Of a stretch of 64,000 nt of DNA, positions 6,593 to 57,071 are shown in pieces. A program made the position numbers and the translations under genes. Origin of the DNA: Acanthamoeba castellanii str. Neff (Eukaryota > Discosea > Longamoebia > Acanthamoebidae); assembly GCF_000313135.1 (NCBI RefSeq), contig NW_004457610.1, positions 1-64,000 on the forward strand, read 5' to 3'. Every line of letters starts with the position of its first letter. Position 1 is the first letter of the stretch. A model generated the notes under the pieces. That model was not told the DNA's origin. It saw only the letters and a list, made by a program, of their open reading frames with translations, and did no database searches.

Positions 6593-9316
6593 AATGCTCA
6601 GCGCCCAACAACAACAACAACAACAAGTACCAAGGAGCGGCAGCCCAAAATCAAAGATCCCAAGAGCGAGTACAAGCACCGTTATTGTTTTAGATTTCTT
6701 TCGTCACAATCTTATTTTGGTTGGTGGAGCAGAGCAGCGAGGTTGTTTGGCTGCACTCCCAAGCAAGTGTCACCGTTCAAGGTGGCCAATGACCCTTTCA
6801 ACCCCGGCAACTCGCTGGAGGGCTGTACGACACCTTTTCCCTCATACCTGCTTGTGCCTACCGCCGGCCACTGTGCACGTGCTCACATCTGACGTCTGTG
6901 TTGTACTCTCTGCCCATCACCATGGTGCAGGGATCTGCCGCAAGGAGGGCAGTATGGGTGGTGCGCTGTTCATCACTCACGTCAACAGGCGCAGGGTCGA
7001 GCCGCAGACCATCTACGGCACTCCGAAGCTCAAGTGCGTGCGCTCCTACGCTCCTTCTCACGGATCACATGAGATGATGCACCTAACGTGTGCCCGCTCT
7101 GCATTAGATATCCGTATGCCACAAAGGAGAACAACGAGTGGAAGACATTTTCGGAGGCGTGCTGCCACTACTACGTGGCTACCAAATGGAACGGGATGAA
7201 CGTGCTCTTCTTCAAATACACCGACGAGGACGGTAACACCTACGTCACCGGCAAGTCCAAGGGCTCTGCCAGCTTGGCCGACGGCACCTTTGGCAGTACG
7301 TCCGTTACCCTCGATTGCGCCTTATCCGATGCGACTTAATTGTGTCGTGTGTCGTGTGTCGTGTGCCGTGTGCCGTGTGTACTCACCGTGTGTGTCAGAC
7401 TTCTTCACCTCCACGCTTCAGGTCTTGGGTTTTGATGGTGGAGTGCCCGAGGGAGGTCTATGGAAGAATCTCCCCGCTCGACTGGCCCTGCTCGCGAACC
7501 CCCTCGTACAATCCTTGACGTTCGAGCTGTGTGGCAACAAGGTACCCAGCCCACCAGATTCCAACCGGTCGTAGACTTGATTGGAGATTTGCCGTTTACC
7601 TACCCTCCTATCTCGTACATCAGGAGCCTCATCTGGTCAAGTATGACTTTGACCTCGACCTGCAGCCGCTCTTTTCGACCACTGTCAGTGGACAGATCTC
7701 ACCGATCATCGTAAGCCCCGAGGAGGGTGGAGATGTGCTGCATCCGTTCGACCAAGCCGAGGTCGTCAGGGTACGCGCGTCCCTTCGGCTCCGCCCATGC
7801 TGAGCGCCTTATGCCTGCAGACATTTTTAATCGATGCACGGACGTGTGTATATAGGTCTGCAAGGAGTATCAGGAGAGGGACTTTGCGCTCAACGAAGAG
7901 TACCGTAAAGCTCACGGGCTCAAGCACAAATACGAGGTAGGCTCCACAATGATGTTGCTTTTGGCCGCACTTGATTGATCCCCTGAGCTCACGAGCAAAC
8001 AAACACGCAGTACAACCACTTTGCGACGGAAGGTATGTGTGCTTACTCACCGCGGCGAACGCCCCAACGCCCACGAACACTCATCGCTTGACGTGTCTCA
8101 GGCCACGTGCTGTACTTGCTCGACGCCAAGCAGCACTTGATTGGCCGGACCATGTACAAAGTCAAGGTGCGCGCAGCCGCTTCATTCTTGGACTCTGTTT
8201 GCCTGTGCCTTCACTTGACTGACTGTCGCCTCCCGACGTCGATTCGTCGAATGGTGTCAGCCGAGAGACATCGAGGAAGTGCACTGGGGCAATTTTGATG
8301 CCACAATGGAAGGCCGGGTGAAGGAGGCGGTGGCGAAGATCGCCACTCGAGAGAAGCCCATGACCGCGGCATCGCTCCGGGCCGAGCTGGACATGGGTCC
8401 CAAGGAGTGGGGCAGGTACACTCTGCCGCTTCTCCGCTCTCTTCTGGCGCTTCGTAGGCGGCTTGGAGGAGCTGACGCGCTTTTGACCAGGTACGGGAGC
8501 GACGTCATGAATGCTGTGGGACAGCTCAGGTACCAGAAATTCTGGGCTCCTCCTGATAACGGACCCCTAGGCCTCCTACTCGTAGGCATTCCAGCAAGCG
8601 GGTACTACCACTGCCCACCGCCTTTCATCCAGGCCGTGTTCGCCTTGATCCGGCTGCTCTTCTGGGCAGAAGGCCTAACTCGCGACTGTATGTTCTTCAC
8701 CCTGTCAACAGCAAGACGACGATCGCCAAGAGGCTGGCCAAGCGCGGATGGCTACGCTTCAGTGAGGATGACTACAAGGGCCATGTGGAGTGCAAGGCTC
8801 ACATGTTGACGACCTTGAGCGAAATGTCAGAGGAGGGCAGGCCCAAGGACGTCGTCGTCGATGCCTCGGTCCTGAACCCCGTCCATCGGAAGGTGCGCCT
8901 TCCTGCTATTCCTCGTCGTTGGCTTCATATATATGTTGCAACTCACCCCGATGGCATGTAGGGGTGGATCAGCACGCTGCATGCTGCCGGGTACTGGAAC
9001 GTGTACGCGTTGCACCTGGACATCTCCGCGGACGTGTGCAAGCGCAGGGCGGCGTCTTTGCATGGTACTGCTCGCTTCATCTACCGCGCCGCGCACCCAC
9101 AGAAGAAGGTGCTGTTGCGGCAAAGGCGCAAGTTGACAACCGACCGCTCTATGACGTGCAGGCGAGGAGAGCGACGAGGGGAGGAGTATGCAGGAGGCCA
9201 TCGGCAAGCTGGCCCAGTCTGCCGAGGCCCAGCCCAAAGCGCGAGAAGGCCTCCAGCGCATCGCTGCCGTCCACACCGACGCCGAAATCGAGGAGTTCCT
9301 CGCCTCCCTCTCCTGA
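6593..9316 (+). CDS. RNA ligase fused to a T4-Pnkp-like polynucleotide 5' kinase
   Basis: At least thirteen exons; from 7108 the junctions are 7108-7295, 7399-7541, 7624-7770, 7856-7936, 8011-8032 (22 nt), 8102-8166, 8261-8415, 8491-8601, 8712-8892, 8962-9064 and 9162-9316. The ligase half carries nucleotidyltransferase motif I (ATKWNGMN, lysine as AMP acceptor), a TGKSKG element, motif III (LTFELCGNK), motif IV (TEGHVLYL) and motif V (TMYKVK). The kinase half has a P-loop GIPASGKTT completed exactly across an intron at 8601/8712, then FSEDDYKG and VVVDASVLNPVHRKGW, which match the catalytic-acid and lid-region layout of T4-type 5' kinases. No 3' phosphatase or cyclic phosphodiesterase domain follows. 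The role is probably RNA end healing and sealing. The N-terminus is uncertain: I propose the ATG at 6593 with a poly-Q tract, followed by poorly supported exons to about 7033. Confidence 0.8.
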
Positions 9317-39132: not shown

Positions 39133-40613
39133 TCAGGCGTTGCTGACGGTAGTGAAGTCGAGGAAGCAGTGACTGCTGTCGTTGAGGCAGATCAGGAACG
39201 GATTCATGAGCCGTACTTTCTTCTTGAGTGACTCCTGCTTCTTCTCGCCTCCGCCGATGAGGCCGCCCGTGCCTTCATCGTCGTTGCGTCCGCGCTTGGC
39301 ATCGTAGATCACGAACTCGGTCTGCACTCGGGTGACGGAGGCGTTGCGAATATCGCACGCGAACCACCGGAAGTTTGTTGGCTCCTTGCTTCCCACGTTC
39401 ATGATCCACTCGGTTCCGATGTTGAGCAGCTGGGTAAGCAGGGCGCGAATGAACAGTGCTGCCAAAGAAGAAGACATAAAAATGTGAGCAGCGAGGAGAG
39501 CAGAGCACAACGAAGAGAGAATAGAGAGATGCCTGGTGTGGCCACTTCCACCTCGTCCCCCGTCCCACGCATGGACCACCTCCCTACCGGCGCGACGAAA
39601 TGATTCGTGGCCACCAGCGACAAGGCCCAGCGAGGCTCCATCCACAACCCCAACACAGGCAGCAGACACCGAGAGCCGCATAAAGGAAAACGAAGAGAGG
39701 CCCAGGAGAGAAGCGCGTACCATGCGAGACGCACAGGACTCTTATCTCGGGGATGGCATTTCTAGACACAAAGTGCGTGAGGTACGACACGATGTGGGCA
39801 ATCATGAATTGAATCGCCCTCTGCGCTCTGCTGAGGAACTCGAACTTCGATTCAACGCCCATTTGATTCGCTGCATTGTGCACACGCGTCAAGTACGTTA
39901 GGGTTCCAGGACGATCGGAGCGCATGCAGGAAAGGAGCGGAAAACGTACATGAGGATTCCTCAGCGATGATGTCCCAAAGGCCCATCATGCGGGGTTCAG
40001 GGAGGTGATCCCATCTGAGCCTGCCGAACTCGTCGAGCACTTGCTCCGATCGGCGACCCTCGTACGCTCCCAGGCTTCTCTCGGTGAGGAGCGGAGTTGC
40101 CACCACTTGGCCCCATGTTGGCGAGGGGGCCGAAGAAGGTGCTGGCGTTGGTAGCGAAAGCTGATCTGCCACGATCTCAGACGTTTCGCTCGCTGCAGGC
40201 ACAGAAGGAAGGGAAGCGTGAGCTCAAGACTGGGCCAAAACAAAGCTAAGGAGAATGGAAAATTCGAGGAATCGCATTTGGCGCGAAATCTCCCATTGAA
40301 ATCTTGAAGGGGAGGTCAAGAGGTCGGGAGGTCGGAGGAAAAGCGGACCTCTTGGGTTGTTGGAGGAGAAGATGAAGTGGAAGGGAGGTTCTTGAGCTTG
40401 CAAAGTGCCGGCTCTCGTGCAGGTAGAGGATCCAATCCGCCCCTTGCTGGTGCTCTCGTGCTCCCTCTGCAGGCGAACACCGAGGCGGCGGGCCTGCTCG
40501 CGTCCAGCCTCGTTGAGGGGTGTGTGCTTCGACCCTTGAAGGATCTTGTGCGCGTTTTCATCTGTCTCGCCATGTCGTACGAAGGTGAAGACGAGCTTGC
40601 GCCTTACGCCCAT
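39133..40613 (-). CDS. Histidine phosphatase (phosphoglycerate mutase-like) family protein
   Basis: It starts MGVRRKLVFTFVRHGETDEN at 40613: RHGE is the phospho-acceptor histidine motif. LNEAGREQARRLGVRL follows as in the family. A later exon has TPLLTERSLGAYEGRRSEQV, the usual 'l.E...G.wEG' region, and the second catalytic histidine is in IRVLCVSHG, completed by an exon ALFIRALLTQLLNIG. The C-terminal extension, with a K/E/G-rich loop, ends CLNDSSHCFLDFTTVSNA and is longer than in TIGAR-type enzymes. Substrate is unknown; it could be a sugar phosphatase. Confidence 0.82.
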
Positions 40614-41268: not shown

Positions 41269-44200
41269 TCAAAGCCGGGGCTGAGCGGAAGAGTCGATGT
41301 AGGCGCTGATCGTCTTCACCACCTGCGTAAACGACGGCCGGTCGTGCGGGTTGTGCGCCCAGCAGGCCTGCGGAGGGGGCACAAGAAGCCCAAACGTGAG
41401 ATCAACGCAAACGCACATTTCCCAAGCGCCAGATTACGGAGGATCACAGTGGCGCGCGGAATTTTGTGCCGTACCTGCATGAGCTTGGAGAATTCGGGTG
41501 GACAGTCGGCGGGCGGGGTGGGGCGGCACTGATCCTTGACGATGGCGTTCTGGCAGTCCTTCGCCTGGAAGTACCCGTTCCTCTGGAAGCGGTCCCAGTA
41601 CTCCTCGGTGTAGGGCAGCTTCCTCGACGCGATTTCGTACATCACGATGCCAAAGCTGTGTGCACACCACCCTAGAGTGAGAAATCAACGAAGAAGAAGA
41701 AGAAGGTGGTGAAGAAGGCACCTGTAGATATCTGATCGTTCGTCATATTCGGTGTTCTCGTGATCCAGGATTTCGGGTGCTAGCCTATCGTTGGCACGCA
41801 CGATCAAGAGATCAGTTACACCAGCCATTTGCTTTGAACTGCGGGCTTCCGCGGTACGCGTACCACTGCCACGTGGGCAAGCCTTCGTGCAGCCGCGGGT
41901 CCACGTGGCGAGCGAGACCGAAATCGCCCACCTTGGCCACCGTCTTGGCGTCGGACTCGAACGCCGTCAGCTGCGAACCCGGAGTGTGAACGAGGCGAGT
42001 GTGAGTTGCGTCATCGGAGTGGGTCCAGCATAAGCTGGAGAGATGAGGTGGCGGAGGAGAGGCGTACGAAGACGTTGGGGGAGCGGAGATCGCGGTGCAC
42101 GATGGGCGGCTGGAAGGAGTGCAGGTAGTTCATCCCCTTGGCCACGTCGAGGGCGATGCGCCAGCGCAGGGCCCACGGGATCTGCTCGTCCTTGCGCGGC
42201 GCCTGCACCGAGCCAGCATTGGCGTGAGACACCGTGAGCTCCTTGGCGTCAAGGAGCTGCCCCACAGCGCAGTTGGGGCGGAGGGATGCCCAGGTCACGA
42301 TACCTTGCCCAGGTCGATGAGCTCGCTGGGGAAGAGTCCCTTCTCGCCGTACATGGTTTCCACTTCGTAGAGGTCGGTCTTCTTCTTCTTGCCCAGAATG
42401 ATCACCGAATCGCCCGCCTTCAGGGGCAACAGCCGGTGCTTGCCCGATTCTGCCGCATGCGTCGCATGATCACAGTCAGTTCGAGGCCGCGCGCGGCCAA
42501 GCGGGGAGAAATGTGTGGCGCAGGGAGGGAGGCGGTACGGAGTGAGTAGGGGTCCTTGTTGACCTTGCCCTTCTGGAGGCTCTCGAGGAGGTCGTGCAGA
42601 TCGCCGTTGCCGGCAAACTCCATGACCATGCCCAGCGGGTTGTAGCAAATGCCGTACAGCCGGATCACGTTTTCGTGCTCCAGGCAACTGTTTTCCAAGC
42701 CAAGCCGAGGGTTCATCATCAGTCCGGCCTCAACCAACATGTTTTGCATTCAACAGGCGAGGCGCATACCTCATAAGGAAGGCCTCGTGCTTGAACTCAT
42801 CGTAGTGCTTGGTGCTCTGCTTTTCCCGCTCCTCGAGTTCCTCATCTTGGTGCTAATGAAACCAAATGAATGTGACGTTAGAACCGCACGCACGCACGCA
42901 CACGCACACGCACCACCGCACTCGACGTAAAACAGGGCGTGCTTGGCATGATACTATACCTTGACGATGAGGAGCTTTAGGGCGACGGGGGTGTTGTTCC
43001 AGGAGGCCTTGTAGACGAGACCGTAGCCACCCTGACCGATCTGGTTGCCCTTGCGCAGCTCCGAATCCTCGATGAACCGCACCGACCCGATGGCCAGATC
43101 TGGCGCCAGGCGGTGCACGCTGATCGACGTCCCGTGGATGGGGCACTCGACTCGCCGGCCCAGCATCACCGATTCCACGCAGTCTGCGGCACGCTCTCGC
43201 GGTCAGTAAAAGAAACACCTCAATCAAAAACGAAAGAAGAAAGAAGAAAAGAGACTTTCGGAGCTAAAAGAGCGAAGAAGAGCGTACCGGCATAGGTGAA
43301 GAGGTGGCTGCAGCGGCGCTCGGGTGTGTCGGGGAAGGGGAGGATGCAGGGAATCTTTCGGGAGACCTCGAGGCCCGTGTAGCCCTGAAGAAGCACATCG
43401 ATGAGGTAGATCACCTGCTCCAGCAGGAACACCTTCTCTCCGCCGCGGTCCTTGTCTCGCGTCTCCGTCGTCTTATCCACTCCCTGAAGGACGCTGCTGA
43501 AGAGCTTCTGCTCGGTAGATTTGTAGATGTTCTTCTCCTTGCCCTGCTCGTCGGTGGCGTCTTCGCCCTGCTCCTGCTGCTTCTTCTTGTCCTTGCCCTT
43601 GTCCCGCTTGATGCCCTCGTCGACGCTCTTGCGCTCGCTGCCGTCACCGTCGGCCCCCGAGTGCGCGCCACCCGTCGCTCGCACGAGCACTTCGATCTTG
43701 TACTCGGGCTTGTCCAACTGCCGCACCAGCGCCTGGTAGGTGGCCGGCTTATCATCGGATCGACCCGATGACGACGGCAAATCCGCCTCGACCACCACTC
43801 CCGTTCGCCATGCCACCAGCAGCCGCACTCCTACGAACAATCAATTCACACCAGGCGTAATAAATTAGAAAATTACAGTTTATCAACAAATAAAGAAATA
43901 CAAGTTAATGATAATAATAATAAAAAATAAAAAGAAAGAGCGAAAGCGAAACGAAGTGAGGAGGTACCGGGGATGTGCATCATGCGGACGATGAGACGCG
44001 CAAAGAGGCCGATGGGGATGAAGTCATTGAGTTCGTAGATGCGGGCGTATTCGGCGACGTCCTCGCACTTGTTCGGCGGCCAGGCCCTGTTGAGTACCTC
44101 CTCGGGCGGGTCCTCCGGCAACAAACTGGGCACCATAAACCGCTTCTCGACCTTCTCCTTCTCCTTCTCTTTCTCCATTTCCGCCTCTCCATTGGTCGTC

Positions 44201-47200
44201 TCCTCCTCTTGCAGCATGTGGTCCAGTCGCAGGTGGTAGATGATCTGACACCGGCGACAGCAAACAATGTTAATGGCGCATAACAAAGCAATGGACCGAT
44301 GCGCTTGCGAGTGTGGCCATACCTGGAATTTTTCGAAGATTCGTTGGAGCGCCGGACGGATGTTGGCCGGATAGTCTCGCCACGCCCAATTGTAGAGCTC
44401 CCTGTTAACCGCACGCACACGCACACGCACACGTCAGGAGCTCGTCGCACACGCACGCGCACAGGACGGGTCGTACCGTTGTGTGATGGCGCCGTTCTTG
44501 ACCCACTTGTTGTTGAAGGAGATGATGCTCTTCATGACGTCGGCCAGCCACTGCGGGTCGATCACCACCAGATCCTGCAGCCCGCTGAACGCGTCGTCGA
44601 AGTGCACCAGCGTACCGGCGTCGTACAGGAAGCGCGCCACCTCGACCAGCTCCTCGCTGTTGATGCCGCAGCCCTGGGCCAGCTTGACCAGGTGGTCCCA
44701 GGTGGTCCACCGCAGCACCTGGCTGGACTGCGAGTCCACTCTGTCCGCCCCGTACGCCGTGCTGAACCCCGCTTGGTGCTGTTCGTCCGCTTCGTCAGCC
44801 TCGTCGCTCTTGCCAGGCAACTTCGGGGCGTCAACCTGCACCTTGCCTGCACTCACCGACAATGACGTGGCGTCAGTCGAGGGTCGTTGCACTTCAGGAA
44901 TGCGAAGAATGAAATGAGGGCCGCGGGTGGTACCGGTGCGTAGGTTGGTGATGGTCTGGTGCAGCGTGTAGTAGCTGCCGGGGATGAGCTGCTTGAGGAA
45001 GCTGTGCTGATTGGCCAAATCGATAATCGACTCCATGAGCTCCTCGAGGCCATCGCCCGACTTGCAGCTGACGTAGCACACCTTCCGCACCCATCGCTCC
45101 TCTCTGCGTTGGCCAACTCGCGTCAGTCACTGACCTGGACAAGCGCGCACACATTAACGGAAACACAGGTGTGTGATGCATACCGCTGCAATTGCTTGCC
45201 GATGGTGGTGAGTGCCTGCGCGTTGGGACAGTCGGGGTGGTCGATGTGTGTGCCCACCACGATGATGGGCGTTTCATTTCCCTTGGTCGACGCTCGCACC
45301 TATAGACACGCCATGATGTCCGTCAGCCATCGTGTGCGTGCGGCGTGTGCGGTGGCGCGTGTGTGGGCAACTCCCCGCTGTGCGCGGGCATGTGCGTGTG
45401 TGCGGTGGTGCGTGGGCGTGTGTGGGCGGGTTGGTCGTGGTCAGGTACCTGCTTGAGCCAATAAAGTACATGATTGCGGTCGTCCTCGACGACGTTGAAC
45501 ACGACCAGGTAGATGGATCGGGCGGTGAGGAAGAGCTGATGCGTCGGGTAGAACACCATCTGCCCGCCAAAGTCGTATGTCTGGAAGGTGACCGGGTCGG
45601 TCTTGCCCTTGCGCCGGGCGGCCACCCAAGCGCTCGTCGACAACTCGCCCATTCCAATGCCGTCCGTGCTCAGCGGCATATGCCTGTACAAGGCCAACCC
45701 TGTCAGTCCACGCACGGCACACACGACACACACGACACACGACGCACGTGCGCACACAACAACACGGTACCTGAGGTGTGAGGGAACTTTCTTGCCCTTG
45801 GCGGTTGCGGCGAAGAAATCGGAGGCGGACTTCTTGGCGGCCTTGGGGTTGTGGAGCAGCGTGGTGAGGCAGTGGAGCAGCGTGGTCTTGCCCACGTTCT
45901 CCTTGCCCACCAGCATCAGCTTGATCCGCGCCCACTTGGCCTGCGACTTGGCAAGCTGCCGGAGGTAGACGAGGATGCCCTTGAGCGAGCCGCCCTTGAC
46001 CTCGGAGGGAATCGACTCGAGTGGGTTGCCAGAGATGTCGAGCTTGACGAGGCCCTTGATGCTGGCCAGGAACGACGGGAGCGCGGTGAGCTTGTTGTCG
46101 GACAGGTCCAGCTGGCGCAGGCCCTTGAATTCCTCGAGCCACGCCGGCACCGTTGTGAGGCCCCTGCCCGCCAGGCTCAGCTGCTTCAGCTTGCGCAGTC
46201 GTCCAGCCGACTGCGTGCGTTGGGTGTTAGGCGTGGTTCATGCGTGAAGAAAGCAACATGCGACACACACGACCACACACACGACACACAAATAGGCGAG
46301 GCAGCAAGGACCTTGGCGGTCATCTTGGACCCGCTATCGAGCAGCAGCAAGGAGAGCTCCAGATTCCGGTTGTGTGTCGCGGCATCCAGCGGGAGCTGCG
46401 AGCGGCATCAGCATTAGGAGCAGGGTGGTGTAGGTGAGAGCCCATCTTAGAACAGCCAAGGCAGCAGTCGGGCCTAACAGTACCTCCTGTAAATTTAAAC
46501 ACCCACGCACGCGCCAGATGAGCTGTTGTCCGAATTATTGGCGAATGGAAGGACGAGAATGGATGCGTACATTCTGTGATGATAGCGGATGAGAGGGAAA
46601 TGGGTTCGCCGGAGGGGGAAGGGGACAGGTAAGATGAGGGACCAGGAGAAGCCAATGTCTCTCAAGCACCAACACGTACCTCCTGTATGCCCCGAGGGTG
46701 GTGTCAGTAAATACCACAAAGCAAAAGACACAATCGGAGTTGAAGAATGGCGAAGGCTCGAAAACGAGAACGAGAAGACGTACAAGCTGGGCGTTGGGAA
46801 CATCAAAGAAGGCAGACCGGGTACGTGACCAAGCGGGGCAGACAGGGGGTCAGCAGCATGTGATGATCATAACGATAACAAGTTAAACAGAAGGCACCTT
46901 CTTGCCGCCTCCGCCCACCGCATCGGTTGACGCCGCGCCCAAAGCCAGCTATGCACACACGGCCACCACGCGTTGATGAGATAAGAAAGGCAGGAGTGAT
47001 CCGACGTCAGAGCGCCCACGTACCGCATTCTGTACATGTCGATTGTGTCCGGGGGGGGGGTTAAAGGTTCGAGTTAGTATACACGTCGAACATTGGTGTG
47101 TGTGTGCGGTGTGTGCGCTCGCGCGTGCGGAAGTACGTACGACCACGTCCTGTAGAAGGCCGGCAGAGAGGGACAAAGAGTTGGTGTCGACCCGTTAGTC

Positions 47201-48990
47201 CATGGATTGAACGCCGCGGCTTCCGCAAGTGGGAGGACGGGAAGGGGAGGCAAACGTACATCCTGTATGGACCGATGGGAAATAAATAAAAGAAAATAAA
47301 ATGAGAATGAGCACTTTACAGCTGTGGTGACCAATAGTGCATTGACCCAATCGGAGGGAGATACGTACAAACTACGTTGGTGTGCCATCAAGAACAGAAC
47401 GAAGAGGCCGCAAGGCAAAGTAAAACGGCGGACAGAGGAGAAGAAATGGTCAGAGAATGTGCGAGAGAAACGCAGTCCACTTGCGAGTGAAGGGAGGGAA
47501 GTACCTCATCCTGTGAGAAAGATCAAATGATCGGAAGAGCGCGAGCGTGCAAAGGAAAAGGTTAGTTGTGGAGGAGGAGGAAGAAGAGACAGTGCCGCTC
47601 ATCCGACGTACTTTCTGCAGAAAGGGAGCCCACGGGTGAGAGTGAGTGATAGTTGAAACACGTTCATGAACACCAACATTGAGGCCATTGATTCGTGCTA
47701 GTCTCAATTAGCTTGTGTTGATAGGGAGAAGGAGTGTGAGCGTACCATCTAGGTGGCCGGCAGACCAAACACCGCAGAAGAGTTGAGGATGGGTTAACGT
47801 CAGTTTGCCGTTCACATCTCTGTTTCACACACACACACACACACACGACAAAACCGCATGTGGCACAGGCTGCCGCGCGTACCTCCTGTCGATCACAATG
47901 CCACGACATCAAGCGTTAGCCATACGCTCACTGCAGCCAAGCTAACTGGTGTGTGGTGTGTGGTGTGTGTGTGAAAGGGACACGCACCACCTGCGTTCAC
48001 CGACCATCGATCGTACAACGTCAGACCACAACACGCGATGCGACTTCAGTCCAAGAAGCGAAAAGGGGCGAAGAGCCTCCAGAAGAAGGAGAGGTGTGTG
48101 CGTGGAGCGCGTACCAACTGCGTAGTAGAGAGGAAACGGATCACATGAGAGGGATCGCGGTTAGTCGCGGTCGGGTGGAGAGAGCAACAAACACGCAAAC
48201 GACCCATCGATGAGAGGGAAAGGCGTACGGATGGCTTGTTGACGTCGGCGCCCTTCGCCAGGAGCGCGCGAACGATTTCCTCCACATTGTCCGCATCCTC
48301 GGCGCACGCGAGATACAACGGCGTACACTATGCATAGTGGAGTCATGAACAACAACCAATCAGTCGAGCGGGTTTGCTTATGATCGTTTACATGCCCATA
48401 GAAGGTGAACACAAAAAGTTGGTTGCTGGGGTGGGATGTGGTTGTGAACACGATGGGCAAGTGTGTTGTTGTGCAGCGGGGGGGGGGGCAAGCAGGGCTG
48501 GCGGTGCGTACCTTCTGCGTGGATGCAGCAAGGGTAAAAAGGAAAGGTCGAAAAGGAAATCCATACGGGGTGAGATCCTCGCGGTTTGCTGTGCGATTAC
48601 GTAGCCAAGATGAGGCGTTGCATATGGGGGGGGGGTACCTCTTGAGAAGCCGGTGTGGAGGGCGCAGAGCTAGAGGGGGAAAGAGGCGCGCTCTGTGTTT
48701 GAATGCAAAATGAATGCAAGGCGTGTAGCCGTTGATTAGAAAAAGAAATCTTTTCGATTTCGTTTGGAGTGGGAGTTCCCATTTTCACGCGAAAGAAAGA
48801 TGGGGAAAGTGGAGTAACGAACCTGATTGCTGAGTAGAGAGTTGATTGTGAGGGATGCGCTTCCGGCAATAATGTCATCTACGGCCTTGAGATTGCCAGT
48901 CTTCAAGGCCTGCACGAGCCGCGGTTCATCCACATCCATCTCTCCGCCCCCTGCTATTATGCCCCCACTGCTCGACGCCAACGCTGCCAT
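41269..48990 (-). CDS. Roco protein kinase A: ankyrin-LRR-Roc-COR-kinase
   Basis: Tandem paralog of the gene at 49405-57071. From the N-terminus: start MAALASSSGGIIAGG (48990) and an ankyrin-like unit; a 99-nt exon that is one whole 33-residue ankyrin repeat (48229-48327, TPLYLACAEDADNVEEIV); an array of 3-9-nt exons; an ankyrin-like exon (46312-46395); leucine-rich repeats (LRQLDLSDNKLTALPSFLA); a Roc GTPase with P-loop GKENVGKTTLL, DFGGQ and VGTHID; COR ([20 protein letters not shown]); a Cys/His segment; and a kinase with [34 protein letters not shown] and LAPEIL, all catalytic residues present. An SH3-like module interrupts the kinase before [10 protein letters not shown]. The end is ISAYIDSSAQPRL. 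It is likely a signalling kinase gated by its Roc domain. Confidence 0.85.
42054..42190 (-). repeat. 137-bp tract identical to 50168-50304 in the paralogous Roco gene
   Basis: The exon encoding the kinase helix before HRD through [13 protein letters not shown], plus about 10 nt of the following intron, is identical base for base in both paralogs, although flanking exons and introns differ widely. Confidence 0.9.
46484..48692 (-). other. Micro-exon array in the ankyrin region of Roco gene A
   Basis: On the minus strand the unit (C/T)AG|exon|GTAC or GTGC recurs about every 100-140 nt. Exons of 3 nt: 48512 AAG, 48115 TTG, 47988 GTG, 47883 GAG, 47746 ATG, 47612 AAA, 47369 TTT, 47260 GAT, 46784 CTT, 46680 GAG, 46571 AAT, 46484 GAG (lowest coordinate given). 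Six nt: 47505 GATGAG, 47024 AATGCG. Nine nt: 47141 GACGTGGTC. Larger members are 48639-48692 (54 nt), 48229-48327 (99 nt, ankyrin repeat), 46898-46948 (51 nt) and 46312-46395 (84 nt, ankyrin-like). All lengths are multiples of three and all introns phase 0. Joined, the residues include DEFDDVVNALALGAASTDA, which resembles the second half of an ankyrin repeat. Confidence 0.65.
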
Positions 48991-49404
48991 GAGGGACGTG
49001 CGACTCTCCCTCTCGCTCGTTCTCTCTTCGGGGTGAGGTTTAGGCTCGTCGCCGTCAGCCCAAAGAAAAATGGAACGCGCCCAAAGAAAAGAAGAACGAC
49101 AGTCGTGTCGCTCTTCCTTCTTTTTGCCTGGCCCTGGTGAAGTGGAGGGGCACCACCACGGCTGTTTGCTGGCTTGCCTGTGAACCCGCGGAAGGTGCAA
49201 TTGCAAGCCACGCGAAGAGATCGGGCGGACGGTGGCGCTGTGTGCGCACGGATGTAATAATATTGTCCTTTATGGCGTGTTGCGCCACCAAATTATGTCG
49301 GTAAATAACGAGACCCACTTTACTCTTAGAGCAGGTCCTAACACCCACCACACCAGCCCCTTCTTCTCTTTTTTCTGGCCCTCTGGGACGTCTTGTGGCC
49401 ACGC
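48991..49404. other. Intergenic region between the tandem Roco genes
   Basis: About 0.4 kb between the start of gene A and the stop of gene B, both on the minus strand. No gene was recognised. It must hold the 3' end of gene B and the promoter of gene A. A TTTATGG/ATAATATT AT-rich patch lies near 49256-49275. Confidence 0.5.
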
Positions 49405-52400
49405 TCACTCGTCGATCGTCGCGCGGGCCTCTCGCGGCGAGGCGAAGGCTTCGGGTACCTGCTTGCTGATGCGATCGACGATCTGCGCAAACGTGGGCCG
49501 ATCGCTCGGATTGGTATGCCAGCAGTCCTGTGCGCACCCAAGTCAAGCAAAAGAGGCGCGGCCTCGTTAGCTTGGTGACTCTCACCGAAACCACATGACG
49601 TCGACCAACACGAGCGGAGAGGGGCGCGATGGGCGGTGGGTACCAGCATGAGCTGAGCGAATTCGGGCGGGCAGTGGTCGGGTCCGGGCGGAGTCGGGCG
49701 ACAGTCGTCGTGGATGATGGCGTTGATGCAGTCCCTGGCCTGGAAGTAGCCGTTACGCTGGAACCTCATCCAGTACTCGTCCACGAAGGGCAACTTGCGC
49801 GCGGCGATCTCGTACATCACGATGCCAAAGCTGTACATGTGTGGGCAAAAACACAACATCGGAGTTAAAACTGCTCAAGCTCGGAGTCAAAAGCAAAGGG
49901 TACGCACCTGTACACGTCGGACCGCTCATCGTACTCGACGTGCTCGAGGTTCAGCACCTCGGGCGCGAGCCACTGCCAAGTGCGCAGGCCCTCGTCCAGG
50001 CTCGGGTCGGTATGTCGCGCCAGACCAAAGTCGCCCACCTTGGCCACGATCGGCGCGTCCAGGCTCGTGCTCATAAGCTGCACCATTCGTGCACGAAGCA
50101 TTCAGCCAAGCTGCACCATTTGCGCGCGCACACACACAAGTCGCCTCATCGGTCGCCGATGGTGAGCGAGGAGAGGCGTACGAAGACGTTGGGGGAGCGG
50201 AGATCGCGGTGCACGATGGGCGGCTGGAAGGAGTGCAGGTAGTTCATCCCCTTGGCCACGTCGAGGGCGATGCGCCAGCGCAGGGCCCACGGGATCTGCT
50301 CGTCGGTGAGCGGCGCCTTGGAGAGCTGGAGGCACTCCTTGGGGAAGAGGCCCTTCTCGCCGTGCGGCGTCTCGACCTCGCACCACCCGCGCTCCTCCCG
50401 CGGATCGTTCCGCTTCACGCCCACCTTCTCGCCTGCATTCCATCAACATTCATTGCTCGGCCACGACGCTATAGTGTCGTGTGTCGTATGTCGTGTGGTG
50501 CTTGCGTACCCTTTTGGAGGTGGTCGAGCACCTGCGCGCCCTCGGGCAACGGGTACCTGTGGACGGCCGGCGAGTAGGTTTGCCGCACGAGGCCCTTCTG
50601 CTGGTTGTCCAGAAAGTGGTAGAGATCGCCGGCGCCGGCGAACTCCATCACCATCCCCAGCGGGTGGTGGCAGATGCCGAACAGCCTGATCACATAGTCG
50701 TGCTGCAGGGAACTGTGCACGCACCCACGCTCGTCAGTATCGGCTGACTGATTGTCAGGTAATTGCCAGGAATGTGGATTATGATTATTCACCTCATGAG
50801 GAAAGCCTCGCGCCTAAACTCGTCGAACTTTCTGGCGTCTTCCTCCTTGTCCTCCTCCTTGATCCTCTGCAGTGTGTCGTGTGTGTCGTGTTGTGCGTGT
50901 TGTGCGTGTTGTGCGAACATAGGTAAGTCTTTGGAACGAGACACAATCGCCGCACGAAGAGGGGAGAACGAACGATGAGGAGCTTGAGGGCGACGGTGGA
51001 GTTGTTCCAGGTGGCCTTGTAGACTTCGCCGAATCCGCCCTTGCCCACGCGGTTGTGCTTGCGCAGCTCGTCTTCGCCGATGAGCCGCACCGAGCCCATC
51101 GCGATGTCCGGCGCCAGACGGGCGACCGAGATCGGCGTGCCGCGGTGCGACGAGCAGCGCACGGGCCGTGCGCCCATCACGGCCTCGATGCACTCGGCAT
51201 ACTCGAAAGCGTGGCGACACACCTTGCCGGTCTTCCGGGTGATCGCAAGGCACGGCACGCGCTTCTGCACCTCGAGCCCGACGTAGCCCTGGAACAGCAC
51301 GTCGAGCACGTAGACCAGGTGCTCGAGCAGGTCGACCTGCAGGATCTCGTCGTCGGCGCTCTGCCGCAGCGGCGGCGACGCGGAGCTGTTGCCGTCGTCG
51401 CCCTGCTGGCTGCTGTCGCTCTCGGCCTCGCTCGACGACAAGCTACTGCCGCCGCAGCTGCTGCCAACGGCGCTGGTCTGCGACATGGACGACGGCGGGC
51501 GGATCTTACTGCGGCGCAGGGTGGACAGCGGGCTCGAGCCCTCGCCATCGGCCATGCGCCACAGGCTGATGGACTTGATGCGCAGCAGGCTCGACGCGAT
51601 CAGGTTGCCCTTGGCGTCGGCGCCCATTTTGCCCGCCGCCGACTTGTCAGCGTCTTGACCACTCTGCGACGCAAGAGCGGTCGAGCTGTTGGTGCGCACG
51701 AGCAGCTCGAACAGGTAGCTGGGCCGCGAGTGCTGCCGGATGAGGGCGCGCTCGACCACGGGCGGCGCGTCGTCGGTCGCGCCGGGGCGGGTGAGCTCGA
51801 CGAGAATGCCCGAGCGCCAGGCCAGGATGAGCTTCAGGTCCGGAATGTGAAGCACGCGCACGATAAGACGCGCGAAGAGGCCGATGGGCACGAAGTCGCC
51901 GAGGTCGTAGACGCGGCCGAACTCAGCCGTGACGTCGTCGCCGCGCACCTCGGGCCACTCCTTGGCCAGCTCGTTGGCCGGGCAGTCCTCGGGCAGGAGC
52001 GAGGGCACCATGAACAGCTTGCCCTTGGGACCACTCACAGCGCCTTCTTCCGACTTCGGCGGCTCCTCGTCGGCTCCCTCCTGGTGCTTGACCTGCTCGA
52101 CGCGCATTTGGAACAAAATCTGCAGTTGTTGCCGTGTGTCGTATCGCGTTGCGTGTCGTGCGTCGTGTGCGGCGTGTGTTGTGTCAGCGATTGCGAGTTG
52201 TCCTGGTGAGAGGAGAGTTGAGCAGACGCAGACGCACCTGAAACCGCTCGAACATGCGCAGCAACGCCGGGTGGAGATGCGGCGGGAAGTCTCGCCACAC
52301 CCAGTTGAACAACTCGCTGTGGTGGTGGAGCGACGTCAGCTGATTGGCACATAAAATAAAATAATATGTGTGATGATTGGGAGACGTTGGCATACCGCTG

Positions 52401-55400
52401 CGCGATCATGCCGTTCTTGATCCATTTGTTGTTGAAGGAGATGATGCTCTTCATGACGTCGGCCAGCCACTGCGGGTCGATCACCACCAGGTCCTGCAGC
52501 CCGCCGAAGGGATCGTCGAAGTGCACCAGCGTGCCGACGTCGTGCAGAAAGTGCACCACCTCGCCCAGATCCTCCAGCGCAATGCCGCACCCACGGCCCA
52601 GCTTCTCGATACGCTCCCAGGTGGTCCACTTCAGGCCCTCCTGCGGACACAAAGAGATAGGAGTTAAAACCAAGTGTTCCGGAGCTAAAAAAAACAGAGA
52701 AAGAGAAAGAGAGAAGAGCGAAGGGCAACGAACCTGTGCTGCGGACTCGCGAGAAAATGTAATGAAGGATTCGCTGCTGTAGAGAGGGGCCACGGTCTTT
52801 GTCATCTCAGGGGTCGGCATGAGGGGCATGGAGACGGAGCTGCCCGTAGTTGCGAGAGTGTGGTCAGCCGCCGTGTCGGGCGACTTGCCGCTGCGCAGGT
52901 TGTCGATCGTCTGGAGGAGCAGGTGGTAGCTCTCGGGCACGGTCTGCTTGAGGAAGCTGTGCTTCTCGGCCAGGTCCACGATCGCCTCCATCAACTCCTC
53001 GATGCCGTCACCAGTCCGACAGCTCACGAAGCACACCTTGCGCACGTTCATGTCTTGTCTGCATTCAATAGCGTTAGCGTGTGTCATGCGTGCGTCGTGT
53101 GTCGTGTCGTGTACCGTTGGATTTGCTTGCCGATTTGGAGGAGGGACTGGCTGCTGGGGCAGTTGGGGTGGTCGATGTGTGTGCCGACGACGATGACCGG
53201 CGCCTCGAGGCCCTTGGTCGATGTCTTGACCTGCTTGAGCCAGTACTGAATGTTTGTGCGATCGTCCTCGACGACGTTGAACACGACCAGGTACAGCGAT
53301 CGGGCGGTGAGGAAGAGCTGGTGCGTCGGGTAGAACACCACCTGCCCGCCAAAGTCGTACGTCTGGAACTCGACCGGGTCGCTCTTGGCCTCTTTGCCCT
53401 TGCTGCCCTTCTTCGCCTGCCGCACCCAATTCTCGGTCGAGAGCCGCCCCATTTGAATGCCGTCCGTGCTATAGTGATGGAAAAGATGTGCATTAGTGAA
53501 TGAACCGCGGGGGGGGAAATAACGAAAGGGAACGCGAAAACGAAAGCGAGAGCAAACGAACCTGAGAAGAGGGATGTTGGGCGCGTTTTTCTTCTTCTTG
53601 TCGGGCTTTTGCTTCTTCATCAGTTTGGGGTTGTCGAGGAAGGTGTGGAGACACTTGAGAATCGAGGTCTTGCCCACGTTCTCCCGGCCCACCAGCATCA
53701 GCTTCACCCGTGACCACTTCTTCTCTTGCGACCTAAACACACACCCGATCACCACACGTATGAGCGCGCGTGCGGTTGGGGTGTGTGCGTGTGCGTGTGC
53801 GACGGTGCGTGTGCGGCGGTGTGTTGCGTACATTTTGAGATTGCGGAGGTAGACCATGAGCGGTTTGAGGCTGCGTTCGAGGCGCTGCTTGATTTCGACG
53901 GGGATGCTGGGCAGCGGGTTGCCGGTGAGGTCCATCTTCTCGAGGTGGCGGAAGTCCGAGATGTAGGTGGGCAGCGCCGTGAGCTGGTTGTCGGAGAGGT
54001 CCAGCTTCCTCAGCCCTCGGAACTCGCGCACCCACTTGGGCAGCGCCGTGAGGTCGCGGCCCGCAAGCGACAGTTCCCGCTGCTTGGCGAACACCGTGGC
54101 CGCCTGTAGCATCCATTACCCAGACATTCACCCTCAGTGAAACACGCTCACACGCACGACAGCTGACAGGCTGCGCACAAGTCTGCAGACGGAGATGAGT
54201 AGGTNNNNNNNNNNNNNNNNNNNNNNNNNNNNNNNNNNNNNNNNNNNNNNNNNNNNNNNNNNNNNNNNNNNNNNNNNNNNNNNNNNNNNNNNNNNNNNNN
54301 NNNNNNNNNNNNNNNNNNNNNNNNNNNNNNNNNNNNGCGGCCCGCGAAAAGAGAGCAGGTTAGAGCCTTGGGCCCGAAATGGCAGGCCTTGGCGTAGGGC
54401 CTCGGCGTGTCTCGTGCGTACCTCCTGGTGGACGGGAAGATGCGAGTGGTGAGTCAAACTCTGCGTTTTTGTTCAAAAGCACCTGAACACCACCTTGTGG
54501 GGACCAGCGGGTGGGTACGTACATACTACGCAGCGCGGAAGCGTTCATGTGTGGTGTGCGTGTGGGGTGGTGCCGAAGTCAGGTCGAAAGGTGACCAGCG
54601 CAACGTGAAGGAAAGAGGAAATACGCACTTTGGCCTCCTTCAGCGTTGGCTGTATCGGCTCTGCTTCTCCCTGGACATTTGACACGAAACGGATGAGGAT
54701 GGGCGCGATCAAGATTGGGGCTCACACTACAAGAAGAGTGGAGAGGGCGGAGCGCACCAGCTGGCGGGTTGTGGTTGATGGTGACGGCCGAAGAAAGAAG
54801 AAAGGTGATTGATGCAGGCATTTGATTATGTGTTAGCGTTGGCGACCACAGCTCACAATGAAACGCGAGCTCAGTAACGTACGATCTGCACAACGCAACG
54901 ACAAGACGGACAATTGAGAGTGGATGAGCACACAGACGAAAAGATAAACTTGTTGTGTGGGGGGGAGATAGAGCACGTACAGCCTACATGAGAAGAAAAG
55001 GCAGCCACAAGCCCAAGGGAGGAAGTCGTCAACACACGGTGTGCAAGCAACCAGGGCCAAAGGGACCTGCACAACACAACGCACTCACGCCTCACTCAAA
55101 CGTACCCCCTGCGCGTCCATGACTGATCGATTAGAAGTGGCGGTGGCGACAGAGTGGGAAGAGTGTTCGCGTACCAACTGAGTGACCGGACATTTAAAAA
55201 GGGGGAGGATCAACGGGCAGGTGGGTCAGTTCAGTGCGGGCCGTAAGGGAGGAGGCCGTAGCAGTGCGTACCGTCTGTGTTGGCGGTCAGGTCAGTCACG
55301 GTAAAATGAACAAGGGAAAAAGATTGCTCGCTGCGACCAATCAGAGGAGAGGCGGAATGTAACGCACGTTCTGATTGGTGGAAAATCAGCCACAGAGATA

Positions 55401-57071
55401 TGGGGACCACACCAACCCCAAACAAGGACCCGGGGGCGTCAGACAGGAAACCTCACATGGTGAGTGTGTGTGTCTGTGTGTGGCAACGTACGTCCTGGAT
55501 AGGATAGAGAACAAACGAATTGGTTAGCTTGCGCGAGCGTTGTCGGTGGTGGAGAAGCAACACTCAAAGCCGTACCAGCTGTAATCGCAGACATGGCCCA
55601 AGAGCGAAAGAGACGAGGGAAAGAGCGAAGGAAAATTAGACTTGTTACATGGATAAGTGAAAGAGAGAGGGCTTGCGTACTCGTTTCTGCACGGGATGGG
55701 CGAGCCGAGGGCAAACGGAGCGGCAGCAGCACGAGGAGAAGGAGAAGCAATGTTTGATTCAAACGCAAGTCAGATGTGTGCCAGCTTCGCCCAGGCTGCA
55801 CCAAAGCAACGCACAAAGCCACAAGAAGAACGCGTACCACCTGGGAGATGCACCACAGTGTCGTATGGTGAGTTACGCTCAAAATAATAATAATAAAGTT
55901 GGGCCGCATAGGAGAGCGGGGAGTACCCTCTGCTCGGTGGATGGTTTTGGGTTTATAGCGCACACGAAGATCACGACGTCATCAGGTTAGAAATAAAAGA
56001 GCGGATTTTGAGTTGACAGTCCATATCGTACCCTCTGCGCGAAGACGAATTAGCGGTGCAATCGCGACGCGTGATTGTGTGCGGTGGTGCGTGTGCGGTG
56101 TTGGGGAGAGGTACAGAAGGAGCGTTGACTTCGGCGCCTCGTCGTAGCAATTCGATGACAAAGCTGGTCCGTCCCTCCTCGGCCGCCACATACAGAGGTG
56201 TCCTCTGTGGCGTGTTTATAAAAAAGGCGTGTGAACCCAACAGTGGTGCTCATTTCCGCTCCACATTGCGGGGAAGAACAGCGATGCAGCAGCGCGTACC
56301 CACTAGACCAGGCACAGCGAACGCACAACGTTGTGCGGCAGAAAGGTCAGTCACCAAACCTCAACCAAGCAACCAAGCGCAAACAGGACAACAGGCAGTG
56401 TTTGTTTACCTCCTGGCAGGTGTGTAACGGCCCGAGCAACCCCGCACAAAAGTTCAGAACGTCGCACGCGACGTGTCAGCCACCTGCACACAACACCACC
56501 GATGGGAGGCTCGGACGGTCGTACCTCCGTCTGTCGGTGGGCAACAGACAACAGGTCGTGGTCGTGGTCAGTCGCACGTCAAATTCTCTCAAGCAATTAT
56601 GTGCACGAATAATGCAAAAATACAAATAAGAAATATCAATACTAAATAAAATAAGGGAGCTCGTGTGTGTGTGTGAACGAACGACGAATCTCGGCGTGAA
56701 GAAGCTCAAGTTGTTGTGGGGGGAAAAGAACGAAAAGAGAAGGGGGATTTAAGGAGGGGGGGCCCGGAAGATCGAAAACGAGAAAGAACGGAGGGTGGGG
56801 GTACGTTGAGATGAAAGATTGCGTTGGCGTTGGGCAGGCGATCAAGCAGGCTGCGCCAGGCGGCCTCATCGCCCAGCTTGGCCGTCTCTTCGAGTTCTTT
56901 GAGGGCGCCCACGCCTCCGATCCGAACCGCCCCGACCGAGCCCGCCGTACCTCCCGTTCCCGCCGTCGTGCTGCCCGAGGTCGATGGCGACCGCGACGAA
57001 CTCGAGCCGAGGCTCCTCGGCGCGCTGGTCGAACCCCCGCTGTCGGTGTGGGGCCTCGCATTCTTCTTCAT
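49405..57071 (-). CDS. Roco protein kinase B: ankyrin-LRR-Roc-COR-kinase
   Basis: It starts [18 protein letters not shown] at 57071; exon 1 is 56805-57071 (89 codons) and ends in an ankyrin-like helix pair. Then come micro-exons, one ankyrin exon (56115-56204, [20 protein letters not shown]), a further micro-exon array, an assembly gap, LRRs ([19 protein letters not shown]), Roc with [16 protein letters not shown] and VGTHID, and COR ([20 protein letters not shown]). A serine-rich low-complexity stretch follows, then a Cys/His segment ([21 protein letters not shown]) and a kinase with [34 protein letters not shown] and LAPEVL. An SH3-like module ([20 protein letters not shown]) sits inside the kinase, as in gene A. 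It ends [11 protein letters not shown]. The kinase appears catalytically intact. Confidence 0.85.
54205..54336. other. Assembly gap (132 N)
   Basis: A run of 132 undetermined bases inside Roco gene B. By comparison with gene A, an 84-nt ankyrin-like exon should lie about here, between the last micro-exon (54422) and the LRR exon ending near 54110. Confidence 1.
54422..56530 (-). other. Micro-exon array in the ankyrin region of Roco gene B
   Basis: Same layout as in gene A. Three-nt exons (lowest coordinate): 56408 GAG, 56300 TGG, 56032 AGG, 55927 AGG, 55838 GTG, 55576 CTG, 55492 GAC, 55368 AAC, 55272 ACG, 55175 TTG, 55106 GGG, 54981 GCT, 54883 ATC, 54758 CTG, 54523 TAT, 54422 GAG. Six nt: 56525 ACGGAG, 55681 AAACGA. 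Nine nt: 54629 GAGGCCAAA. The 90-nt ankyrin exon (56115-56204) sits inside the series. Donors are GTAC except GTAA once and GTGC three times; acceptors are CAG or TAG except AAG once. After the ankyrin repeat the joined residues read RRVKRLDNTLGAILEAKYE, a plausible helix. The exon between 56530 and 56805, if any, was not resolved. Confidence 0.65.

Follow-up and report, generated by a model that had tools for sequence, protein, structure and literature searches.

Very small exons tend to be skipped when splicing depends on exon definition. Isolated microexons of 1–9 nt have been described in mouse Ncam (3 nt), Arabidopsis APC11 (1 nt) and Fusarium CYP621A (1 nt) (PMC4674806, PMC8042270, PMC12940212), and for the APC11 exon the authors propose intron definition, with the introns removed one after another (PMC4674806). 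One fungal gene is reported to have two 3-nt exons (PMC5639578), and plant peptidase M1 carries adjacent microexons of 5 and 12 nt (PMC8831610, PMC11096116); read data from plants suggest that introns flanking microexons are removed consecutively (PMC8831610, PMC11096116). The micro-exon genes of schistosomes contain 10–20 short exons, mostly multiples of three; these are mostly 15 bp long, at least 6 bp according to the text of the source and 3–81 bp according to its abstract, and the introns reach ~5 kb (PMC10526429). Here we analysed a stretch of 64,000 nt (the window; positions 1–64,000 of contig NW_004457610.1, assembly GCF_000313135.1) of Acanthamoeba castellanii str. Neff, in which a minus-strand gene, designated hereafter as gene A, contains an array of fifteen units of 3, 6 or 9 nt. 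These are almost certainly true spliceosomal microexons, mostly of a single codon, that encode a loop between ankyrin repeats of an ankyrin-LRR-Roc-COR-kinase protein; their short introns are most likely removed stepwise, with a displaced branch point leaving space for the next donor.

The elements are microexons in kind, and the run of single codons is an extreme new form of them. Like the isolated cases they are spliceosomal exons far below exon-definition size, but unlike the single microexons of Ncam, APC11 and CYP621A they stand 10 in a row in gene A and, as candidates, 13 in a row in its paralog gene B (described below with two further paralogs, genes C and D). The plant peptidase M1 microexons are also neighbours, although only two in number and of 5 and 12 nt. 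A gene of the schistosome type would consist mainly of consecutive short symmetric exons, whereas microexons account for 19 of the 1,309 codons of gene A; moreover, 49 of the 58 microexons in A–D are 3 nt long, the median flanking intron is 105 nt and the proteins are unrelated. Zambounis and colleagues reportedly described in 2012 brown algal LRR-Roco proteins, candidate pathogen receptors subject to exon shuffling in which whole repeats are exons. As there, the protein is a Roco protein with repeats from separate exons; unlike there, the loops between ankyrin repeats are themselves split into codons. The likeness to recursive splicing lies in repeated acceptor–donor pairs removed stepwise (PMC4674806), but ratchet points leave no nucleotides behind, whereas here each step would leave a codon in the mRNA. 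In the literature searched, mostly outside subscription journals, neither a report of microexons in Acanthamoeba nor a run of single-codon exons was found. An earlier note on this DNA pointed to isolated 3-nt exons in eukaryotes and to no consecutive string of them; microexons in succession are not entirely without precedent, given the 10–20 short exons of the schistosome genes (PMC10526429).

A profilin encoded in the same genome is identical across 125 residues to profilin II of PDB entry 1f2k, from A. castellanii, which makes Acanthamoeba very probable as the genus; a locus taken up as a cofilin marker proved to be coactosin-like. Gene A was modelled as 37 exons, open throughout, encoding 1,309 amino acids and a stop codon. 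Its ankyrin repeats come first, followed by LRR, Roc-COR and protein kinase domains, so that ANK, LRR, Roc, COR and kinase stand in the order of a Roco kinase. A Pfam scan of A, C and D, limited to their N-terminal portions, identified the ankyrin repeats, and the remaining domains were assigned through database homologues; one of these, P0121, whose domains were precomputed, shares 40% identity across 97% of gene D.

The product of the array was found in P0239, a database protein of 297 amino acids from a contig of 1,643 nt, which ranked first of 416 in a search with the N-terminal alignment of A, B, C and D. Along 254 residues it agrees with the spliced prediction for gene A, with no gaps and one mismatch, the latter suggesting another strain or allele. 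The match begins at TTG of exon 4, read as M, and runs to exon 22, crossing 14 of the 15 microexons, the 51-nt exon that interrupts them and 18 introns. Because the matched stretch spans 2,678 nt of genomic DNA, exceeding the entire 1,643-nt contig, the source of P0239 is a spliced sequence. It contains GADVNKPS-L-V-E-M-K-DE-F-D-DVV-NA-LALGAASTDAVGGGGKK-L-E-N-E-LPLDAATH, the product predicted for the array, and its agreement across 14 microexons shows that the triplets are coding sequence retained by splicing. In gene A, therefore, splicing joins the triplets in the order and frame predicted: ten consecutive exons of 3–9 nt, then four more after the 51-nt exon, are correctly joined.

The 15 microexons of gene A (twelve of 3 nt, two of 6 nt and one of 9 nt) occupy 46484–48514 of the window (2.0 kb), each bounded by YAG upstream and by GTAC, or in one case GTGC, downstream. 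The exons are, in the order of transcription:

48823..48990, minus strand: exon 1, 168 nt, first ankyrin part; open frame in phase 0, ATG start inferred
48639..48692, minus strand: candidate 54-nt exon, SAPLSPSSSAPSTPASQE, uncertain; YAG/GTAC ends, phase 0, outside P0239
48512..48514, minus strand: microexon 1, AAG (K); from sequence pattern and gene model, outside P0239
48229..48327, minus strand: 99-nt exon, one ankyrin repeat (CTPLYLACAED...GADVNKPS); within P0239 except for its first four codons
48115..48117, minus strand: microexon 2, TTG (L); spliced in P0239
47988..47990, minus strand: microexon 3, GTG (V), followed by GTGC; spliced in P0239
47883..47885, minus strand: microexon 4, GAG (E); spliced in P0239
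47746..47748, minus strand: microexon 5, ATG (M); spliced in P0239
47612..47614, minus strand: microexon 6, AAA (K); spliced in P0239
47505..47510, minus strand: microexon 7, GATGAG (DE); spliced in P0239
47369..47371, minus strand: microexon 8, TTT (F); spliced in P0239
47260..47262, minus strand: microexon 9, GAT (D); spliced in P0239
47141..47149, minus strand: microexon 10, GACGTGGTC (DVV); spliced in P0239
47024..47029, minus strand: microexon 11, AATGCG (NA); spliced in P0239
46898..46948, minus strand: 51-nt exon, LALGAASTDAVGGGGKK; present in P0239
46784..46786, minus strand: microexon 12, CTT (L); spliced in P0239
46680..46682, minus strand: microexon 13, GAG (E); spliced in P0239
46571..46573, minus strand: microexon 14, AAT (N); spliced in P0239
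46484..46486, minus strand: microexon 15, GAG (E); spliced in P0239
46312..46395, minus strand: 84-nt exon, last ankyrin repeat (LPLDAATHNRN...); present in P0239
41269..46210, minus strand: remaining 17 ordinary exons (LRR, Roc-COR, kinase), stop at 41269; open spliced frame, homologues alike in architecture

The earlier note had listed the same fifteen units with CAG or TAG before and GTAC (once GTGC) after them, and all were recovered at those places. It had taken the array to extend over 46484–48692, of which the microexons cover the part up to 48514, position 48692 being the start of the 54-nt exon. The spacing, given there as about 100–140 nt, is slightly wider: the 18 microexon-flanking introns of gene A measure 75–184 nt, with 14 of the 18 at 101–134 nt. 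That the larger exons keep phase 0 is borne out by P0239 for the 51-nt and 84-nt exons and for most of the 99-nt exon, while the 54-nt exon keeps the phase but lies outside P0239. The proposal that the units are spliced and coding was upheld, P0239 neither skipping units nor retaining spacers and holding the 14 microexons it crosses in order.

The window contains 34 YAGNNNGTAC sites, compared with an expectation of 8.15, a count reached by none of 100 shuffles, and 24 of the 34 sites are on the minus strand inside the arrays of gene A (11) and gene B (13). Array A has 14 YAG-3/6/9-GTAC units, its fifteenth microexon having GTGC. On the minus strand the 2.3-kb stretch richest in such units is array B, with 15; the highest count in any stretch of that length was six among 200 first-order Markov simulations of the strand. 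Chance clustering of the units is ruled out by the shuffle and Markov-copy counts. The genome (38.4 Mb in 250 contigs, the window's contig being 67.7 kb) was searched for pairs of 3-nt exons in three spacing combinations, the pattern being limited to GTAC donors so that arrays with other donors escape it. This gave 9, 6 and 7 matches, of which 6, 3 and 3 fell in genes A–D; the 3, 3 and 4 outside them compare with 2, 15 and 5 in a backwards control. For the three spacing combinations, runs of 3-nt exons followed by GTAC donors do not exceed the control level outside genes A–D, and single-codon arrays as a general habit of the genome were rejected on this ground. A 4-nt version of the pattern had two genome matches, none in A–D, against four in the control. 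LRR-Roc relatives on contigs C67, C72 and C146 contained 4, 10 and 10 scattered candidate units (~9–10 kb each, both strands) and no cluster; in the one on C67, a fifth relative, the ankyrin repeats lie in one uninterrupted frame with normal loops such as VNARDQAGWTPLF and no array.

Introns flanking microexons in genes A–D are 66–274 nt long (median 105), the others 62–154 nt (median 87). All 69 of the former are in phase 0, compared with 16 of the other 37, of which 10 are in phase 1 and 11 in phase 2. GTAC donors are present in 57 of the 69 and in 21 of the 37, and the acceptor is CAG or TAG in all. In donors and acceptors these are thus GT-AG introns like the genome's others, with a branch-like motif that is displaced. 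The CTRAC nearest to the acceptor lies at a median of 49 nt in introns ending at a microexon (36 of 58 have one) and at 23 nt in ordinary introns (16 of 37 have one), a difference reached by none of 5,000 permutations. At 10–32 nt from the acceptor CTRAC is found in 6 of 58 microexon-ending and 15 of 37 ordinary introns (Fisher p 0.0008), at 33–55 nt in 17 of 58 (2.8 in shuffled sequence) and 1 of 37 (shuffled 1.6; p 0.001). The motifs CTNAC and CTRAY agree on the shift, and with CTRAY the 11 introns leading from a microexon to a long exon resemble ordinary introns (five near, none far). The pyrimidine share 3–25 nt before the acceptor is 0.65 in microexon-ending and 0.55 in ordinary introns.

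The most likely mechanism is recognition of every spacer as a short intron in its own right, by intron definition, in which case exon size would be irrelevant. The earlier note remarked that exons of this size are too short for exon definition; they need not be so defined where the unit of recognition is the intron. An acceptor and the next donor 3 nt apart could hardly be occupied together, so that the introns would be removed one after another, each step appending one codon to the upstream exon. A displaced branch point would free space for factors on the following donor, and offers a concrete, testable reason for the array working. The array may persist because skipping a 3-nt exon would lose only one residue in a length-tolerant loop; as the flanking introns are all in phase 0, a skipped codon would do little harm, which may explain the tolerance.

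The microexon codons fall in the stretches that separate one ankyrin repeat from the next, downstream of GADVN and upstream of TPLH. In gene D, counting by eye, the loops come to 3, 3 and 5 residues if the microexons are left out and to 6, 8 and 7 if they are kept, close to the 7 residues of a typical loop such as those of P0121, and in the first loop a glycine codon coincides with the consensus glycine. The Pfam Ank score of gene D was 74.2 with the microexon residues, 67.6 without them and 68.7–69.9 in all eight random fillings; the real residues also outscored the fillings in eight of eight cases for Ank_3 and Ank_5. Overall, five of seven Pfam ankyrin family scores of gene D rose with the microexons and two weak ones fell. 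In gene A the loop would be of near-normal length without the candidate 54-nt exon.

Several observations weigh against the interpretation of the arrays as stepwise-spliced coding microexons. The spliced product is represented by one transcript-like sequence, for gene A only and known as protein, while the microexons of B–D are known from sequence only; its source label, 'lgn', probably denotes assembled sequencing runs. Because P0239 starts in exon 4, the AAG microexon and the 54-nt exon lie outside it, and its predicted structure is poor (mean predicted local distance difference test score 59, and <50 at 12 of the 18 microexon residues). With microexons included, five of seven Pfam ankyrin family scores fell in gene C and all four fell slightly in gene A (both versions without the 54-nt exon), indicating that the long loops there are insertions; in gene D random fillings beat the real residues in two of eight cases for Ank_2, one of eight for Ank_4 and five of eight for the sub-threshold Ank_KRIT1. 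Gaps from YAG to GTACG other than multiples of three, counted over all introns between large exons, number 1 in A, 17 in B, 0 in C and 17 in D. The branch result is post hoc and based on motifs rather than on mapped branch points; the loosest motif, YTNAY, gives a smaller shift (21 of 5,000 permutations), and with CTNAC the 11 introns from microexon to long exon have two near and two far, in small numbers. Sequential removal is what we infer, no splicing intermediates having been seen.

The last 42 residues of P0239 also depart from gene A, and contig C48 accounts for 41 of these at 100% identity. The P0239 contig is a chimera of two Acanthamoeba loci, or else a spliced retrocopy in another strain; array splicing is recorded in either case. 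We consider it improbable that P0239 derives from such a retrocopy rather than directly from RNA: the fusion of gene A with a C48-matching piece and the one residue that differs from the window would fit it, but no second copy was seen in the genome, where a search for LRR-Roc gave 13 matches and none on C48, and a retrocopy would itself preserve a spliced mRNA and leave the main claim unaffected. P0239 was the only carrier of the array among six database fragments examined, the array being absent from the other five; P0248, P0250 and P0254 start immediately upstream of the LRR exon of B and appear to be genomic. P0239 also bears on the idea that the units are ratchet points within one or two long introns, removed by recursive splicing with the triplets lost and noncoding, which we regard as very nearly untenable. 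YAG-NNN-GTAC does resemble a recursive splice site, where acceptor and donor are joined, and omitting the triplets keeps the frame and slightly improves the ankyrin scores of A and C. For gene A, however, the idea is contradicted by P0239, which holds the triplet residues in order; a recursive site is a zero-length exon that leaves nothing in the mRNA, and here 3–9 nt remain. The distances from YAG to GTAC in array A are 3 (eleven), 6 (two) and 9 (one) and never 0, the exceptions being one of 1 and one of 13 that overlap the 99-nt and 9-nt coding exons, and in gene D the residues complete ankyrin loops.

The arrays are not unique to gene A: genes B, C and D each have a candidate array like it, placed in loops of the same type. 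Gene B, a tandem paralog on the minus strand of the window, has its array at 54422–56530; this second array was absent from the earlier note. Its predicted features are:

56805..57071, minus strand: gene B exon 1, tandem paralog; from the gene model
56300..56530, minus strand: first-loop candidate microexons ACGGAG, GAG, TGG (TE-E-W); from sequence
56115..56204, minus strand: 90-nt ankyrin exon (...GAEVNAPS); from the gene model
54758..56034, minus strand: 13 candidate microexons, AGG AGG GTG AAACGA CTG GAC AAC ACG TTG GGG GCT ATC CTG; from sequence
54422..54670, minus strand: 42-nt exon and candidate microexons TAT and GAG; from sequence

The candidates number 18 in gene B (three in the first loop, thirteen in the second and two after the 42-nt exon), 16 in gene C, one of them of 18 nt, and nine in gene D; paralog B thus suggests a run of 13 consecutive microexons. 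The gene B model ends at a run of N (54205–54336), where the last ankyrin exon should lie. Genes C and D, on contigs C172 and C207, were both reached through the pattern search, and the gene D model has 31 exons, is open and ends at the end of the retrieved stretch. Genes A–D together have 58 microexons with 72 codons and no stop, a regularity that, like the uniform phase 0 of the flanking introns, is partly built in, as frame-keeping exons were chosen. The codons ACGGAG (TE), a microexon in B, close exon 1 in C, and the aligned loops read HLN-TE-E-W-RTPLY in B and HLYQTE-EM-E-R-TPLY in C. Intron 3 of gene A and introns 2, 8, 15 and 17 of gene C, of 164–260 nt, may hide more exons; gene C intron 8 (L018:5632-5891, 260 nt) contains a frame-keeping 15-nt candidate, TGGAACTTTCAAACG (WNFQT), bounded by YAG and GTAC and left out of the models.

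The A. castellanii genome paper gives 6.2 introns per gene and, for introns of transferred genes, supports none of the mechanisms put forward for intron gain (PMC4053784). Uniform phase 0 and near-uniform 3-nt exons are the expected product of tandem duplication of an intron-plus-codon unit, or of a mobile intron (introner), and copies of one unit would also have its displaced branch position in common. We nevertheless hold such an origin to be rather unlikely, if worth keeping in view. The introns do not share sequence as introners would: array introns have a mean local score of 15.8 against 15.1 when shuffled (neighbours 15.7, ordinary introns 15.0), the best pair scores 36 against 29 for shuffled and 50 for ordinary introns, and no tandem repeat of unit length is present in 44000–50000. 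Judged by these comparisons, recent unit duplication or introners are not supported, and an old, fully diverged duplication is possible. The gene D loops suggest that introns may have entered an existing loop, and the long loops of A–C that intron-plus-codon units may have been added. Dense phase-0 introns in one protein loop bear on intron gain or tolerance.

The array also offers a natural experiment on intron definition, on the order in which introns are removed and on the minimum distance between acceptor and donor. Gene finders miss such coding sequence: among the matches listed, the best 120 in each of three database searches, none was named Acanthamoeba. A more far-reaching idea, to which we give little credence, is that the array is a combinatorial device, a codon-by-codon splicing ratchet in which displaced branch points would allow acceptor and donor to lie 3 nt apart and each codon could be skipped without a frameshift. 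Were it true, Roco kinases of receptor-like architecture could be made in very many variants differing by single residues of the ankyrin loop.

The kinase regions of A and B share 137 identical bases (42054–42190 and 50168–50304) that extend into the intron behind, the second and third longest exact matches between the two genes being 65 and 32 bases; the 137-base identity looks like a sign of recent gene conversion. Upstream of gene D, on the opposite (plus) strand, there is an ankyrin-repeat match at L019 ~6827–7078 (C207:1313327-1313578). Downstream of gene A, at 39133–40612 on the minus strand, lies a gene that starts like a histidine phosphatase (VRHGETDENAHKILQG, read by eye).

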